A stretch of 64,000 bases of DNA, from contig NC_092676.1 of assembly GCF_964355755.1 (NCBI RefSeq), forward strand, positions 10,708,288 to 10,772,287, in the 5' to 3' direction. Positions 4,943-61,779 of the stretch are shown piece after piece. The notes beneath the pieces were generated by a model. It was not told the origin of the DNA, searched no databases, and saw only the letters and a list, made by a program, of their open reading frames with translations. This DNA is from Antedon mediterranea. Lineage: Eukaryota > Echinodermata > Crinoidea > Comatulida > Antedonidae. How positions within the stretch are numbered: the stretch's first letter is position 1; every line of letters begins with the position of its first letter. Both the position numbers and the translations under genes were made by a program.

Positions 4943-7900
4943 ATGGCAGCTTTTGAAACTAATTCGGAGTTCGCTAAATTGAAGTCTGATCTCAGTCGAC
5001 ACTTTGATGGTAACAGAATTCGTTGGTTGAAATTCTGTTTATTTGACCACTTAACTATAGGGGACCTTACAGAAGCAAATTCTATTGGAAATGATTTTTT
5101 CAATAAGCTAAATGACAAATGGGGATATTGCACCTAATAATGTTAACATTTTATTGGAGGTTGCTAAACTATCCAATTTGAAGAAAGCCGAAGATCTTGT
5201 AGTCCAGTATATTAAAGATAATAATGCTGAAAATACTGACACAGAAAAGGTATCCTCTCATCGAAAACAGATGTTTAAAACTTTGCAAAATGCTAGCCCG
5301 GATGCATTGAAGAGGATTATTGGTCACTATGATCTGGCAATGTATGAATACACAAATATATGGGATGTAGTATTTAGATTAGAGACTGACAAACTGTTAT
5401 CAGATGAACAAAACAAAAGAAACATATTCATTAGTCTTCTTCAACAAAGTGGTATGTATTTTATAATTAAAAATCTGTTATTGTGATTTTTTTAATTAAA
5501 TAAAGTGGAATATTTCATCACCAAATCTTCGGAAAAATTATTCTTGGTTTACATTGCACATATCTTCCCTAACTGAACTGTGAAGTGATGACATCATCCC
5601 TATTAAATGGCTAGCATTTCCTCTATCCCTTGATAAACTGTGAGGTGATGATGTTTGGTGATCATATCATATCATGGTCATCCATAGTAGAATCTAAACT
5701 ATCTATACTTAATAAGTTAGTAATATTGTATAATATTGTAACTTTTTTCATTAGGGCCGATGAAATTTGATTTAAATACTGTATAATCTTAAAGATATAT
5801 TTGCTTTTTTTAGATGATAACGTAACATCCAATAGAAAAAGAGCAAGACAAGGTATTTAAATTCAAACAATTTAAAGTTGTTATAGCACATTTCAACTAT
5901 CAAATTTGTTATTGCTGTATAAAATGTGTTTGATTGAAATTATTGTAAAAAAACAATTTTGTTTTTCCAGGGAACAGTGGGGATGAAGATGATGGAGCAT
6001 CAGGTTCCAAACATAAACAAAAAAATATTTTTAAAAATTTTTATACCTGATAAAATGGTTTTTTTTTCCCTAAAAAAATGCCAGACATTTCATCAGTTTA
6101 ATTAAGAATCATTGATGCAACCTACTTGGAAATGTACCATTTTTTAAGATATCAAACTGTTCTCATCAGCACAGACAACCACTTTTGTACAAGAGAAACT
6201 CATAATACTCGCAATAATTTAAATATGTTTAGATCTATTACCATGTCTCAGGTATCTTGCATGTGGATTTTGACCCACTGTAAGTCTGTTTTATTTATTT
6301 TATATTACAGAAAAAATAGAAGCATACCTGCTAAACAGACAAGAGACATTCTTCCGCAATGCCACGACTTTTACACCGGCAATATTGAATAAGAGATACA
6401 GAGTCGACATTTCTGAAATATTCACAGAGTTGGACTTACTTAAAGAAAATGACAGAAAGAAAGAGATTCAACCAACAACGTTGAAAGATGTGTTAGCGAT
6501 AATCAAATCTAAACCAGATTGTAAAGTTCTCATAGATGGAGAGGGTGGTATAGGTAAAACAACTTTATTAAAGTACATAGCATACAATGCAGCTACTGAT
6601 AAATTATTTGAAGGTAAATTTTTATTTCTGTTGAATGTAAGAGATTTACAGAAAAGAGATGGAGTCTTAGATCTCATTGCTAAGCAAATCAATATAAAAG
6701 ATTTTAGTTTGAAAACAGAGCTTAAAGAAGATTTAACATTAATAAAACAATTCATAGCAAAACATGATGATAAATTTGTGTTGTTGTTGGATGGATTAGA
6801 TGAATTAAGATTTGAGAATAAATGTGTGATTCAGCTTTTTAGGAAGGAAAAATTGATGAATAGCGTAGTGATACTTACTTCTCGTACAGAAAACATAAAT
6901 GAATTCATAAATGCATGTGACTTACATGTAAGAGTAAAAGGATTTGGGAAGAAGAGTATAGAAAAGTACATTGAAAAACATTTTGAGTATTTTGGAAACC
7001 CAGAACTTGGAAAATCTCTAAGAAATGAGCTTGAAATTGGACAATATAGTTGGCCACCTAAACATCCAGAAATATGTTCAATGAGCAAGAATCCAATGTT
7101 ACTCCTTACAATTTGTGTTATATGGGAAGATTCACAAAATATTTCTAATTATAAATCTGATCTTTTCAAAGAAATCTTTCGAAGTATTTTGAATCAGTTC
7201 ATTGAAAAACAGCAACACAAATTTATTTCAAATTTTGAGGAGGCTCCAGAGGAGTATGTACTTGCTATGATTCTGTTAGGTAAATGCATGTATCAAAGCT
7301 TGAAAATAAATCAACTTTCAATAAACAAAAAAGATTTGAAAGCTAGATGTAACAAAAATATTGTTGATATGGCAATAAATCTTGGGTTTGTTATGAAGAT
7401 GTGCCAATTTCAAAATCTAGCTTTGAAGATATTTATACGCCACCTCACAAGTTGATTAATGAATCGTTGGTAGGATTTTATTTATACAAAGTAGTTGAAA
7501 GTAAAGGTATTAAGAATAAATGCACTGATGATTTAAAGCTACTACTTGCACCATTGGATGAAAATGAATGGAAGGTAATACGAGAAAGTGATCATTTCAA
7601 AATGACAAGAGAGTTTGCAATAGGGTTTCTTGGTGCTGATGCTGGTAGTTTTTTAAAGCATTGGATTTCAAATGATTTATCAACATATCGATCTTTGGTT
7701 ACATGCTTCAAATGTGTTAAGCATCATCACGTGGATGCTGTGGAAAAAACATTAAATAATCACATTAGCACTACAACTTTAGAAATAAAACAACAAATAC
7801 AAGATATTTCTGATTCGTTAGGAATGTTCATGCAACATTTTCTACCACATGAAGAAACTAGTGAACATGTTATACATCGTATAAGGCAATTTCATTCTTT

Positions 7901-8849
7901 CATTGTTAACATTCATTGTAGTGGGGATGATGGTTTACGATGGAACGAATTTCTTAATACACTTTCATCTGATCATAAAGGAAAAGTTCTTGCACACATA
8001 TTATGTATTGCAACTTTGTTTGAACTAAACGTGGCTAATTGTAATTTAACAGGTGATATAATAAATGCCATGATCACAGAGTGTTCCAATAAAGGAGGCA
8101 AGTTAAAAGTATATGACTTTAATATCAATAGTAATAATCTCAGCGGCATCGATGGTACTTTACTGTTTTCTTTATTGACTATTTCTCCTCAGCTAGATTC
8201 CCTTGACATGCACAATTGTAATCTATCAGGTCATTCAATAAATGATATGAGCAGAGAGTGTGCTAAGAGAGGAGGTGAATTGTCTTTAATCTATCTCAAT
8301 GTGAGTAGTAATAATCTCAGTGACATTGATGGTACTTTACTGGGGTCTTTATTGTCTATGTTCTCTAAGCAGAGGCCACTAAAAATGCCTAGGATTGATA
8401 CACTTGACATGCATGATTGTAATCTATCAGGTGAGATCATGAATGGTGTGATCAGAGAATGCTCAAATAGAGAGGTAATGTTAAGATTGTATGACCTCAA
8501 TATCAGTGGCAATAACCTCGGTGGCATTGATGGTACTTTACTATGTTCTTTATTGATTATGTCTCCTAGACTTTGTAAACTTCAAACACATAATTGCAAT
8601 CTATCAACTGATATTATGAATGGTATGATAACAGATTTTTCTAAAAGAGGAGTGAATACAAAGTCCTTAAAATATCTCAATATCAGTAGAAATGATCTCC
8701 GGAACATCAATAATACTTCACTGAAATCTTTATTGAGTGTGTGTCCTGAGCTACTTGACCTTAACATGCAAGAATGCAATCTATCAATTGACGTTAAGAA
8801 TGATGTGATCAGAGAGTGTTCTTACAGCAATGTCCACTTAGCATTATAA
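4943..8849 (+). CDS. NLR-like innate immune receptor: DED-like, NACHT, LRR; frame broken twice
   Basis: Coding exons: 4943-5451, 5814-5852, 5971-6003 and 6311-8849, all joined in phase 1; the donor of exon 3 (GTTCCA) is weak. The product would be about 1,040 aa. Order: an N-terminal death-effector-like helical domain (about residues 5-80, with LKFCLFDHL), a second helical segment, a short basic/acidic linker (NRKRARQ, then GDEDDG), a NACHT ATPase with Walker A GEGGIGKTT near 6540-6570, Walker B VLLLDGLDEL near 6780-6810 and sensor VVILTSR, then leucine-rich repeats 8020-8830 in paired units carrying DMHxCNLSG and YLNxSxNNL. Architecture fits a cytosolic NLR-like sensor that oligomerises through NACHT and signals through death-fold contacts. 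Two single-base indels break the frame, at about 5110 (extra A in the DED) and 7392 (missing T after NACHT). These mean a young pseudogene, an allele, or homopolymer sequencing error. Domain assignment is by motif; the DED call is the least certain. Confidence 0.85.
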
Positions 8850-38099: not shown

Positions 38100-38432
38100 T
38101 CCTCTTTTGGCTAGCCTACCTAGGCTAGGGCCTAGGCCTAGCTAGCTAGACTCTACCTAGGCCTACTAGGTAGGCCTAGGCCTAGCCTAGCTAGCTAGCT
38201 AGCCTAGGCCTAGTTAGCTAGGCCTAGCCTAGCCTATAATATATAGCTAGGGTAGGGCCTAGGAGGCTAGCCTAGCTAGCTAGTCTAGCTAGAGGCCTAC
38301 CTTTCCTAGCGTGCCTAGCCCTAGCTGGTAGTAGCTAGTAGGACCAAGTCTAGCTATAGCCTAGTTTTAGTAGGTAGAGGCCTACTCTCTAGCTAGTAGG
38401 CCTAGGCCCTCTCTCCTACTAGCTAGGTGTCA
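38100..38432. repeat. GGCCTAG/CTAGCTAG palindrome cluster upstream of TAF12
   Basis: Over 300 bases consist almost only of interleaved AGGCCT, CCTAGG, GCTAGC and CTAG palindromes. It is the same sequence class as 13994-14275 and likewise sits in the 5' region of a gene. Confidence 0.85.
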
Positions 38433-38984: not shown

Positions 38985-41900
38985 ATGGCAAACCAACAAC
39001 CACAACTTTCTCTAACACAAGCTATAGGTAGTCCAGTTATAAGACCTGCACAAGCGCCACGTAAAACACTACTGGAAACAATCAAAGAGATTGAAAAACA
39101 GATTGAGGTAAATACAGTGATGTGTGTGTGTCATGTATACTTTCGCTCTTTTTTCTGTTTCTTCCTCCTTTGTATGTTTATTCTTTTTACTTCTCTTTTT
39201 TTTGTCCACTAAGACAATTTTAATGGGTCTGTTAGTTTCATCATCCTTTTACTATTCCTACTATTTTAATTTGTTATTGAACCATGTTTCATAAGGGTAG
39301 CCCATCCAGCAAAGCTGATCATTGTGGCCCTCGACAATACAATACAAACAATACAATACAAACAATACAAAAATACATTATCATAAAAAATTAATTATAA
39401 ACTAGACATGAAACTCGTCACTTTGACGAGTTAGTTATCCGCACGACAGATGCCACGTGCACGAAAATACAGGACCACCTCTTATTATAGTTTTTAACGT
39501 ATTATAATTATACAGTACACTGTGTATAAAAGGAGACATTAATTCTACATGATACAGAGGGCGGCAAACAACAATTTGCTCACATCAGAGACTATGCTGG
39601 TGTACATTGTACTACTGTATATTATATGACATATTAACTGAATTATGGGACCTGCCTTTAATTCAAATATTTAACATGACGACGTCATAAAAAAAACAAC
39701 ACAACGATAGCAATTTCTGAAGAAAATTATCTTAGCAACAACATATTAACGTGTAGAAGAAATTTGAATACGTAAAATGTTGGTGCGCGCACATTTAAAT
39801 GTGATGAACTATTACGCAAAATATGAAAATACGACTTTTTTTATTCAACTGGCAATATGATGACGTCACAACATCCGATTGGCAAAATGTTTACATGAAT
39901 TCGTATCTACAATCCTATAGCTTCCAGAAAATGTGATAATCACCAGAAAATGTTTTAATCGTGATTATCACATTTTATTCTTACGAGCTATTACAGATTA
40001 AAATTTACTGTAAAGATGAAATTAATGACCCACGTAATTAAAATTTTTAGGCATGATGACGTTATAAAAATTTAAATATTTTTATCTCATGCTAAAGAAA
40101 GTTGATTGACCTAGACAATATATAAATATAGGAGAAAAAGGAATACAGATAAGCGTGATGCGCTCCATTGAATGTGATGAGCAATAACGAAACAGACAAA
40201 AATCCTATATTTTACATTCGTGTGGCCATACGATTACGTCACAATGTTTTTTTAGCCTTATTGATGCATGATCCGACATCTGCAACTCATCAACTTCTAG
40301 ATTTTGTAATAAAAATAAACGGTTCACGGTTTACTTTAGAAACTATGACTGTTTAAAAAAAGACATTATTTTGATGATTTTTTAAGCTTTTTCATAAAAA
40401 ACGCGCACAAATTGTCTAATTCAACGTGTTCGTATGGCGTTATTTAAACTGGAAAAGTTCTAAATTGTTTTCAAAATTACTAGGAAAGGCTTGAAAAATA
40501 TAATTCAAGAGAAAAAAATATGTTTTTTCGCTACGTGCGCACCGCGTGCGTAAAAAATTGCGCGCCCGTGGGAATTTTTGACATGCTCAAAATGACATGA
40601 AACGCGTAAAAAGTTGATTAGAAATTAATTTTGCGCATTTTGAAATTTTAAATGCGCGTGCGCGCGTAACTTCTTGTGAAACATGCCATTTTTAATCCGT
40701 AGAAAGTTTGCCCCTGATATGACTTAAATTTTGTCAAAGTGTCAATACTAAATGACTTTTGGTTTTTAATCTATGATCAATCATTGAAATTCATAAAATT
40801 GCGCGTAAGTCACGTTGCGCAACTATGACGTCATTCAAAAATAGGAGGTGCACAACTTCACGTAAATGCCCATATGTTGTCAAAATTATGAAATGTTATG
40901 TTTACACATTTTAGAGAAACGCGACTCACAAAAAGGAAGGAAGGAAAGAAGAATAATACAGAAAAACTAGATTTGAACTCGTCACTTTGACGAGTTCGGG
41001 TTATCCGCGCAAACGCAACATGCACATACTTTAAACTATATAAACTTCGACAATTATTATACCATCCTATGACATGAATTAAGAATGTTTACAGTGCTGA
41101 ATTGTACCTATTTTGTAGCATACAGCATATTACAGTGTTTACAGAATACACTGTATGTTATATACAGTGTAGAATAGACGAAATTACGAGACCCATCTTT
41201 TAAATCCAATTATTAACACAATGACGTTATCAAATTGGCATATAAAGATAACAATTTTAGAAGATAATTATCTAAATAATTACATTAATACAAATTTTAA
41301 GAATTTTGGGCACGTGAAAGTGAGATGCGCTCTCGTTTAAACGCAATGAACTTTTACGCAAGAGATGAAATATGACTTTTTGAATTTAACTGGCCATATG
41401 ATGACATCACAACATCTGATTGGCAAAATATTCACATGAATTCGTATCTACAATCCAATAGCTTCCAGAAAACGTTTTAATCATGATTATCACTTATAAT
41501 TCTGACGAGCTATAACCGATTGAAATTTACTGTAAAGATAAAAATAAGTGACCCACATTATTTACATTTTTAGACATGATGACGTCATAAAAATTAAAAT
41601 ATTTTTAACTCATGCGAAAGATAGTTGATTGACCTAGACAGTATTAAAATATATGAGGAAATGGAATACGTATAAGCGATATGCGCTCTATTTAATGTAA
41701 TGAGCAATAACGAAACAGTCAAAAATCCAATATTTTACATTCGTGTGGCCATACGATGACGTCATAACATCCGAGGGGTAAAGATTCTGCATGAATTCAT
41801 ATCTACAACATATCTGCTTATATATTAAATTTAAAAAATTGGGGGTAACGGTTGATCCTGAGGAGCTATAATAGATTCAAAGTAGGCATAAATTTGACAT

Positions 41901-44900
41901 TATTTTGTAACTTTTTCAACAAAAATGCGCGCAAATTGTCTAAATCAACGTGTTCGTATGACGTCATTTTAATTTGAAATGATGTCAATCTTTTTTAAAA
42001 TGACTAGGAAAGGCTGGAAAATCATAATTCAAGAGAAAAAACATGATTTTCATGCTCCGTGCGCACCATACGCGTAAATTTGTTTGCGCGCGCGGGAATT
42101 TTTGACATGCTCAAAATGTCATGATCAGCGTAGAAAGTTGATTAGAAATTAATTTTGCGCATTTTGAAACTTTAAATGCGCGTGCGCGCTTAACTTCTTG
42201 TGAAACATGTCATTTTTAATCCATAGAAAGTTTGCCCTTGATATGACTTAAATTTTCACTAAGTGTCAAAACAAAATGACTTTTGGTTTATAATCTATGA
42301 CCAATCATTGAAATTCATAAAATCGCGCGTAAGTCACGTTGCGCAACTCTGACGTCATTCAAAATATGGAGGTGCACAACTTCAGGTAAATGTCCATATG
42401 ATGAAAAAGTTATATATATGATATAGTAACAAGCAATAGGGGATATGCTGCGCACAAAAATCCGGGAAAGAAAGAAGAATAAAGATGAAAAAAAAAAAGA
42501 TTTTTACAATAACAAGGGGTTATCCGCAACTTAAAGTTGCGGATAACCAAAAATGTTGATCTCATACAATAACAAGGAGTTATCCGCTTGGTATACCAAG
42601 CGGATAAATAAAAACTACTATAAATATAAAAATTGTGATAACATTTTCAGATTTCGTAAAATTCAATAAATCAAATATTAAAACATAATACAGGTACAAG
42701 AATTCAATATAATACACAGAGGTTTAACATGATAAAGTACTGTACTTTTTTAAATACAAGCACAATTCAAAAAGAGAGACAGGTCAGAAAACTAGTTACT
42801 ACTTTATTTAGGATTTGAATCTAATAAGATTTAAAATTTGTCTTAAAATTTCCTACAGTAGATTTCCGAATAAAGGACGGGAGATATTAAGTAAGGTTGA
42901 GCTCTATATACAAAGCTACGTTTTTAAGTTCAGTCTTAGGACGAGGAACATCAAATAAACTAGAGTGGATTTAAGTTTTATTAATTAAGTTGTTGCCTTT
43001 AAATAGATCTTGGAAAGTGGTCCGATTTCAGGAAAGCAGGAACAAGATTTAATAAAGTTGAAAGAATTACACAGACGGGCACTTGGAGAACAGGAAAAGG
43101 TAACAATTGAATGCACTAAAAGTTTTTACTATACCTAATTTAAGCTAAATTCAACTTTAGTAAATCCATGCAATCCTTAGCTTCAAAATTGTTTCATTGC
43201 ATAGGAATATTTTTTTTCTCTATTCTGTGGTTTACCACCACTTTTATTTTATTTATTCAGATAAATAATAACTATGAAATAAAAATTATTATTCTACTCA
43301 CAAATATTTGTTTGAATATTTCTATTTTTAGTTGCAAAATCAATGGAAAGTTTCACAGCAGGGTTCTGTAAAACCTATTCAAGTGGTGGCAACATCAAGT
43401 CAACCAGTTGCAGCATCCATGGGCATACCGACAAGCCAATTACCTGTTAATTCAGTGTCTGCAGGCAGCATTGGTGGTACACCACCATCTATTAAGGCGA
43501 GTCCTGTAGTGTCAGGGCATTCAATGGGAGTTAGTGAAGCACAGGTAAATAATTCATTTAAAGTTTAATGTCTGACAGTTGACAAAAAAAACTACCAATT
43601 AAGGATTTACTAGACCCCTAGTCCTTGGCAACGGCTGTTTCACCAAAGATTGTATAGGTAACTGCGTGAGACATTTGTAATCTATGGACGCTATTCCGGC
43701 TGACAAATTTGAACCGGAATAAGTTGTTGTCAAGGCAATATCATACAATGTTTTGATCAAAAAACGAAGTTGTATAACCAAGCATGTCAATGTAAACACA
43801 CATAATTAATCAAAAAGTGTCCAGATCCAAAAGAATCTTTTATTTTACTTTGTTTACATAATTTTTTCCCTTTTCCATGAATCAACCCTCAAGATGGTTA
43901 ATTACGGATACTTCGATGCGAACCGCAAAATTTAAACCATTTCCATTATAAATCAAAATAGAAGGCGCTATAACCTATGTTCATGTGTCCCCCCCTGAAT
44001 GGCGTCTATAGATTTTACAAGGTGCGTAGTGTTATAAGATAGGAGCTTGGAAACAGTTATCTATGTTGTGCCGCTATCTTTGCTTTTACTAGATTTAGTA
44101 GATTAGCAAACAGAAAGCACTAATTTTTAATTTTGCCTGATTTTCTATTTTATTGACGTCCTACTACTATTTGATGGTGTAGTGATTCTTGTATCTGGTT
44201 GGCTACTACAAAAAAAGGTTACAGCTCACATTACAGTGTCATGTTGTAGATCACCATTGATAAAATCTGCACATTTGATTGATGGATCGACTTTTTAAGT
44301 TTTAATGTAATTAAAATTTATTTTAAAAATCAATTTTGACAAACCAAAATTAGTTACTAACCTGACTGACAGTTTCAGTTGTCATTTCACGAGCATTTTC
44401 TTCAGAGTGACGACCATATTATTAAAGGAAAGGAACACCATGGGCTAAATGTGCCACTGTGCTTATAGATAAATGTAATAAAAACATGATTACCATGGTT
44501 CAAGGTACAATAGTAAGCAATTTACGGTAGTTAAAAAATAGACTTTTAAACGACAACATGACGCAAATTGAACAGCGCCATTTTGACAGGTTAAGAGCAA
44601 TTATGTGTCGCATTCAAGCAAATCAAAACGTTCATCGTCTTTAGTACAGTATTTTAATACGGTAGTGCGGGATAGGATAACCATAAATAAAATCAATTAA
44701 ATAGCCTAACATACCTAATATTTTCGGAATATGGCTTGGAGTTTTTATAATGCGGAAAATTTGGAACCAGAATATACAGAAAGAGAGTTAGTTTGCGTCG
44801 TGAGGAAAAAAGACAACATTCTTCTCTTTCGTTGTCCTTGTTGTCGCTGCGGTACCGCTACTACTACTACAAGAATTACTAGGCCTAGAACTCGTGTTGA

Positions 44901-51294: not shown

Positions 51295-52080
51295 TGCTGG
51301 TGGTATCTACAATATCTAAGCTACGCCATACTTAAATGGTAAATGGGGTCTCTAGTCGAACTTTAGAGGGGTCTGCCAGGGCCAAGGCAGTGTACAGATA
51401 GTTTGTAATAGGTATTTTGGTATTGCTTACAATGTGCTAAATCATTTAACATTGGTTGCTAGTGGTATCTACAATATCTAAGCTGGGCTAGTTGAGAAAA
51501 GAGGGGTCTCTAATCGAACTTTAAAGGGGTCTGCCAGGGCCAGAGCAGTGTACAGATAGTCTGTAATAGGTCATTTGGTATTGCTTACAATGTGCTAAAT
51601 CATATAACATTTGTTGCTGGTGGTATCTACAATATCTAAGCTGGGCTAGTTGGGGGAAGGGGGGTCTCTAGTCTAACTTTAGGGTATCTGGCACTTGCGG
51701 TGCAGCAGACAATTAGTCTGTTGTTATCCATTTAGTATTGTATGAACACAACTTGTTCATTTGGCATTAATTTTGAGTGGTACCTCACTCATCTATGCTA
51801 ACCCCTTTTTAGGCCCTCCCTCGGGGGGTCTGGCGGGCCTTTTGCAGCAGAGAAAAAGTCTGTCGTTTGTGATACTGGTATAAAGATGCCAATGGGCATC
51901 CCATGGTGGTAAAATTAGGTGGTATCTCTCTCATCTAACCTGGGTCGATTTTTTACCACGTTGGGATCTAGACGCAGCAGGGGGTACCCGGCAGACTCCC
52001 ATTTTCATTGACTTCAAGTGACTCCCAAAACACTTAAATAGTCAGATATTGGTACCTAGCTCATCTAACCAAATGTCTCT
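51295..52080. repeat. Tandem repeat, period about 160 bp, degenerating rightward
   Basis: TGGTATCTACAATATCTAAG occurs at 51301, 51463 and 51621, each followed by GGGGTCTCTAGTC-like and GGGTCTGCCAGGGCC-like phrases. Weaker units starting GGTACCTCACTCATCTA, GGTATCTCTCTCATCTAA and GGTACCTAGCTCATCTAA follow at about 51779, 51921 and 52050. No coding frame. Confidence 0.85.

Positions 52081-54694: not shown

Positions 54695-61779
<7,085 letters not shown>

Follow-up and report, generated by a model that had tools for sequence, protein, structure and literature searches.

We identified the two hairpins at positions 42518-42548 and 42579-42608 of the window (the whole 64,000-nucleotide stretch of DNA that was analyzed) as the 5' ends of two non-autonomous Helentrons (HINEs), one nested in the other. 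The feature is very probably a two-level nest of minus-strand HINEs from a family that nests repeatedly in its own T-run. The inner stems of the two hairpins differ because the elements belong to two subfamilies.

The hairpin at 42518-42548 has the form GGTTATCCGCAACTT-A-AAGTTGCGGATAACC, with perfect arms of 15 bp and a center of one nucleotide. The original prediction described two look-alike, self-complementary hairpins. Both are real, with a shared repeat and differing cores, but the one at 42579-42608 has lost its outermost G-C pair (GCGGATAAa), and its perfect palindrome spans 42580-42607. Folded as single-stranded DNA, the two reach -15.7 kcal/mol (z -9.95) and -12.5 kcal/mol (z -9.20), respectively. 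The shared sequence is a direct repeat of 23 nt, TACAATAACAAGG[G/A]GTTATCCGC, starting at 42505 and 42565 with a spacing of 60 bp. Five instances of GTTATCCGC occur in the window, versus 0.11 expected. Across the 354-Mb genome, the pattern GTTATCCGCN{2,28}GCGGATAAC matches at 2104 places, and its reversed control at 0. A shared motif had also been proposed beside hairpins at 39432 and 41000, and GTTATCCGC is indeed present at 39434 and 41000, adjoining hairpins of the form AACTCGTC-ACTTT-GACGAGTT at 39412-39432 and 40976-40996. The parts of the nest, all on the minus strand, are:

42579..42608, minus strand: 5' hairpin (palindromic 5' subTIR) of the outer HINE, core TTGGTATACCAA; the same class occurs at many loci, and the 5' terminus lies at ~42609
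42549..42578, minus strand: remainder of the outer 5' module (CTCCTTGTTATTGTATGAGATCAACATTTTT), split in its T-run by the inner element; 31 uninterrupted copies exist
40967..42548, minus strand: inner HINE, 1582 bp, complete from GGTTATCC to CTAG, within the T-run of the outer element (from fetched loci and alignment)
42518..42548, minus strand: 5' hairpin of the inner HINE, core AACTTTAAGTT (from folding and fetched loci)
41000..41008, minus strand: 3' subTIR of the inner HINE, GCGGATAAC then C (from motif count and fetched loci)
40976..40996, minus strand: 3'-terminal hairpin of the inner HINE; terminus CTAG at 40967-40970
39402..40966, minus strand: body and 3' end of the outer HINE, resuming at TTTTTCTGTATTATTC; the whole outer element runs 42609-39402
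39434..39442, minus strand: 3' subTIR of the outer HINE, GCGGATAAC then T (from motif count and fetched loci)
39412..39432, minus strand: 3'-terminal hairpin of the outer HINE (AACTCGTCAAAGTGACGAGTT); terminus CTAG at 39402-39405

The minus strand carries, in turn, the outer hairpin, ..GAGATCAACATTTTT, the inner hairpin, the inner body, the inner 3' end, TTTTTCTGTATTATTC.., the outer body and the outer 3' end. The inner HINE is inserted ~60 bp in from the outer 5' end, the two 3' ends lie 1.5 kb apart, and the outer element has an own length of 1626 bp when the inner element is subtracted. The junction consists of the outer 5' module (..CAACATTTTT), the inner element and TTTTTCTGTATTATTC. The empty site is found elsewhere in 31 copies that run straight through as GTATGAGATCAACA(T/G)TTTTTTTCTGTATTATTCTTCTTTC; these intact copies have 8 T residues, compared with 10 at the window junction. 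The 3' ends are of different types, CCG for the inner (CAAATCTAG) and TA for the outer element (TCATGTCTAG). As the bodies are ~81% identical and the 3' ends differ, the two are different elements and do not represent a recent duplication.

The assignment of ends follows from the order of the modules. At the fetched loci, viewed on the other strand from that used in the original prediction, the 5' module has the form (A/G)GTTATCCGC-core-GCGGATAAC-(T/C)CCTTGT...GATC...T-run. The 3' module has the form GCGGATAAC-linker-AACTCGTC-loop-GACGAGTT-6 nt-CTAG, with a T after it. Published HINEs have a palindromic 5' subTIR 2-4 nt from the 5' end, a 3' subTIR, a 3' palindrome and a T-rich target, with a microsatellite or T-run behind the 5' subTIR (PMC4067079; PMC7492417). 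Because the module order matches this published order, the two window hairpins mark 5' ends, and those of the AACTCGTC kind at 39412 and 40976 belong to 3' termini. The opposite reading, with the two window hairpins as 3' ends, was dropped once it had been compared with the published order of ends and with the CTAG junctions on the 3' side. The 5' subTIR, (A/G)GTTATCCGC, lies at the terminus and the 3' subTIR, GCGGATAAC, ~32-40 nt from the CTAG end; the two share 9-12 bp, depending on subfamily. The 3' palindrome (AACTCGTC..GACGAGTT) is located ~10 nt before the end and occurs 2898 times genome-wide. Intact paralogs of the interrupted T-run show that the T-rich target is not duplicated, and T-run lengths vary among copies, as reported for Helentrons. 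A canonical Helitron (Helitron1, with a 5'-TC start and A/T insertion) was rejected; these elements start with (A/G)GTTATCC after TT, and only the 3' CTAG resembles CTRR.

The autonomous partner carries Rep (HUH) and PIF1 helicase in one protein. Across the genome there are 87 Helitron_like_N matches. About 50 lie in open frames that reach ~3100 aa and also contain PIF1, with the two matches ~2.1 kb apart within the same ~3100-aa frames. The nests of a second subfamily include five slots of 17.0, 17.3, 20.1, 20.9 and 21.4 kb, each containing exactly one Rep ORF, which runs antisense to the termini. Three of these slots (17.0-20.1 kb) lie inside the array C1:14500157-14569173 and the 20.9- and 21.4-kb slots elsewhere; a sixth slot of 34.5 kb, in a less complete array, also has one Rep ORF. 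The 2.9 kb behind one autonomous 5' hairpin contain neither an ORF nor a 3' end. Some Helentrons are known to have antisense ORFs (PMC5148889). By their ends, target and Rep plus PIF1, the elements are best classified, from sequence, as putative Helentrons/HINEs; strict-sense Helentrons are defined by an endonuclease domain. Separate Helitron_like_N ORFs of ~1400 aa with PIF1 (G000:C7:8918426, C1:19630172, C1:29681497) are probably canonical Helitrons.

The position of insertion is narrowly confined. Nested starts lie 51-109 bp inside the 5' hairpin of the host element in 64 of 73 and 17 of 17 cases (81/90 together), with two further starts at 122 and 134 bp and none at 135-1450 bp. Head-to-tail junctions, 12-13 bp behind the 3' palindrome and directly at CTAG|TT, are the other common kind. 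Elements of this family land in T-runs without target duplication. Each of them bears a T-run of its own, 50-110 bp inward from the 5' hairpin, and new copies enter there repeatedly. The 5' hairpins are therefore stacked on one side and the 3' ends trail at body-length intervals, in the manner of balanced parentheses. The enzyme is presumably the linked Rep-helicase, and transposition is likely to be rolling-circle. Self-targeting may be caused by the T-run preference, perhaps aided by Rep bound to the hairpin.

The numbers of ends are close to balanced. There are 2650 oriented 5' hairpins versus 2898 3' ends genome-wide (1286/1385 and 1364/1513 by strand), and 755 versus 802 for the second subfamily. 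With a 5' hairpin coded as '(' and a 3' end as ')', arrays were tested in detail on C1, among the first 100 matches listed. The array C1:919603-939889 (13/13) is a perfectly balanced word. C1:3172940-3078416 is balanced at 29/29 over 94.5 kb and is 12 levels deep; an inverted two-level nest (C1:3166479-3169671) lies within this nest of opposite strand. In the second subfamily, C1:14500157-14569173 is perfectly balanced at 15/15, with 9 levels and 1.2-kb slots. A random order of n/n ends is balanced with a chance of 1/(n+1), which gives ~1.5e-4 for the three exact arrays jointly, before counting the equal numbers themselves. In C1:5693648-5799416 there are 41 versus 42 ends, 40 of them matched, among the matches listed. 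The own length after subtraction of nested elements is 1450-1700 bp in 71 of 82 cases, compared with a mean of 31 and a maximum of 46 in shuffles of event kind, a constancy that follows in part from array periodicity alone. Other arrays keep unmatched ends (C1:22978931-23062024, 30/35 with 28 matched; C1:14150730-14194184, 12/18), and some have odd slot lengths of 4.8, 11, 31 and 38 kb; we attribute both to missed ends, unlisted classes or autonomous elements.

On one point the original prediction was right, as core type does track element type: the hairpin class predicts the class of the matched 3' end in 72/82 pairs, versus a mean of 50 and a maximum of 62 in label shuffles (0/5000 reach 72), using a table of classes and 3' types drawn up after the pairs were seen. 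The table agrees with the window and with the complementarity of the base beside the subTIR (A-T, G-C). Covariation exists, and it links one end of an element to its other end: 5' AGTTATCCGC occurs with 3' GCGGATAACT, and 5' GGTTATCCGC with 3' GCGGATAACC. Core type is a marker of element lineage. A further class of 5' hairpin, GGTTATCCGCAACGAAGTTGCAGGATAACC, with a bulged A and paired with a CAA-type 3' end, occurs at L007, L008, L076 and many places on C1; the exact palindrome pattern misses this class.

Not every nest need be an independent insertion, because C1:8613413-8616550 is the same two-level nest in other flanks. A nest formed once may have moved afterwards as a unit of outer plus inner element, the window being a copy of an older nest. 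This scenario is compatible with nesting and has a little under an even chance of applying here. The inner and outer elements at that locus are 92.1% and 92.5% identical to those in the window, an equal divergence that favors joint movement without proving it, and the same two-hairpin junction occurs at many loci. However, the target T-run is identical in every copy, so parallel insertions would look alike. Moreover, the inner class lies directly behind several other outer classes (TTAGTA, ACTTG, ACATGGCAGTGT, TTGGTAGA), and repeated independent nesting is required regardless.

The preference for self could reflect plain T-run preference, local hopping or guidance by Rep and the hairpin. Active self-targeting, in which Rep at a resident 5' hairpin, bound or cutting, directs copies into the adjoining T-run, is a tentative proposal that we consider somewhat doubtful. 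If true, the 5' end would be both origin and landing pad, and the arrays of up to 95 kb would be programmed recursive nesting rather than chance hits on T-runs.

It is very unlikely that the hairpins are repeated 5' ends of one read-through product or concatemer, in which bypassed ends lay down tandem truncated copies. Bypassed termination has been invoked for tandem Helitron arrays (PMC4067079), as proposed for bats and plants, and a review traces plant arrays in which many 5' ends accompany single 3' ends to circular templates (PMC12628747). An excess of 5' ends, as in plants (PMC12628747), would then be expected; the near-equality genome-wide is not predicted, nor are ends that are exactly equal and in nested order in three large arrays. 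In addition, neighboring units come from different subfamilies, and matching ends pair over a distance. The window units are only ~81% identical, and the junctions restore an uninterrupted outer element. One stretch does resemble such a product: at C1:14176573-14180256, in the second subfamily, plain head-to-tail HINE units follow one another at exactly 1217 bp, unlike the nested stretches. These units possibly represent a true tandem duplication or a rolling-circle concatemer and need not be nesting.

A folded RNA or terminator hairpin with an inner stem kept paired by compensatory change, as first suggested by the full pairing and good folding of both window hairpins, can be dismissed almost entirely: among 89 distinct hairpins at the fetched loci the inner pair is absent in 26, at least three inner pairs are present in 44, and many cores are non-palindromic. 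Variation without preserved pairing, which the original prediction had named as the result that would speak against compensatory change or templated copying of stem arms, is what we find. The core classes differ by descent. Many are loops of 4-6 nt without an inner stem, the palindromic AACT..AGTT class varies in the loop only, and no core class contains a two-sided change. Changes in the outer stem are one-sided, breaking or wobbling the pair, and the wider hairpin list holds a single two-sided change (CTGC/GGAG), in a stem mismatched elsewhere. Most stem changes that might be taken as compensatory (CTGC, GTGG, GCAG, CCAC) are single changes at the stem CpG, as by decay. A structured RNA family was likewise rejected, with no Rfam match within the window and no compensatory pairs inside core classes. 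The suggestion of a transposition terminator survives insofar as the hairpin is a transposon terminus; it is the 5' end, and the 3' ends have a separate hairpin of their own (AACTCGTC..GACGAGTT).

The nested HINEs share with known Helentrons and HINEs (Helitron2-like; DINE-1, HINE-Mo, Cg_HINE) a palindromic 5' subTIR by the 5' end, a 3' subTIR with a terminal hairpin, a T-rich target without duplication, a microsatellite or T-run behind the 5' subTIR, and non-autonomous copies that share ends with a Rep-helicase element. The ORF antisense to the termini is known in a few Helentrons. Unlike in those elements, the T-run behind the 5' subTIR is here the main landing site, with nests up to 12 deep, and a single outer stem is combined with several loop classes. 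The FoHelis of Fusarium oxysporum have multiple short 5' duplications of <200 bp and one nested copy, with self-insertion proposed as the cause (PMC5148889). Multiple 5' termini and self-insertion are common to both systems; however, the few cases in FoHelis have multiple 5' ends and a single 3' end, whereas every level keeps its 3' end here, in hundreds of copies. Plant centromeres, bats and silkworm also have large tandem arrays of rolling-circle elements (Helitrons), but these are ascribed to end bypass or circular templates, often with many 5' ends and one 3' end, whereas the ends balance here. In a literature search, we came across no previous description of transposon arrays that are nested or share one site in 'Russian doll' fashion. 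Helentrons, HINEs and occasional self-insertion are already known; the depth, the single self-target and the balanced arrays appear to be new.

Recursive self-insertion at one self-carried site would give rolling-circle transposons a second way of becoming satellite-like arrays, and balanced, type-matched ends distinguish it from read-through. The nests are stratigraphic records in which the order of insertion can be read from the brackets, and a single genome therefore allows direct tests of the target choice of Helentrons, age order and end pairing. A stack of 5' hairpins can be mistaken for a tandem repeat or an RNA structure.

The window is animal-like DNA with 33% GC. A frame with a NACHT domain followed by a leucine-rich repeat (LRR) frame is found at 6274-8849, and flavin amine oxidase exons lie on the minus strand at 54695-60466. 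Reverse-transcriptase fragments are also present, as are a tandem repeat of 158 bp (2.4 copies) at 51295-51681 and an array rich in GCCTA/CTAG at 38114-38280.
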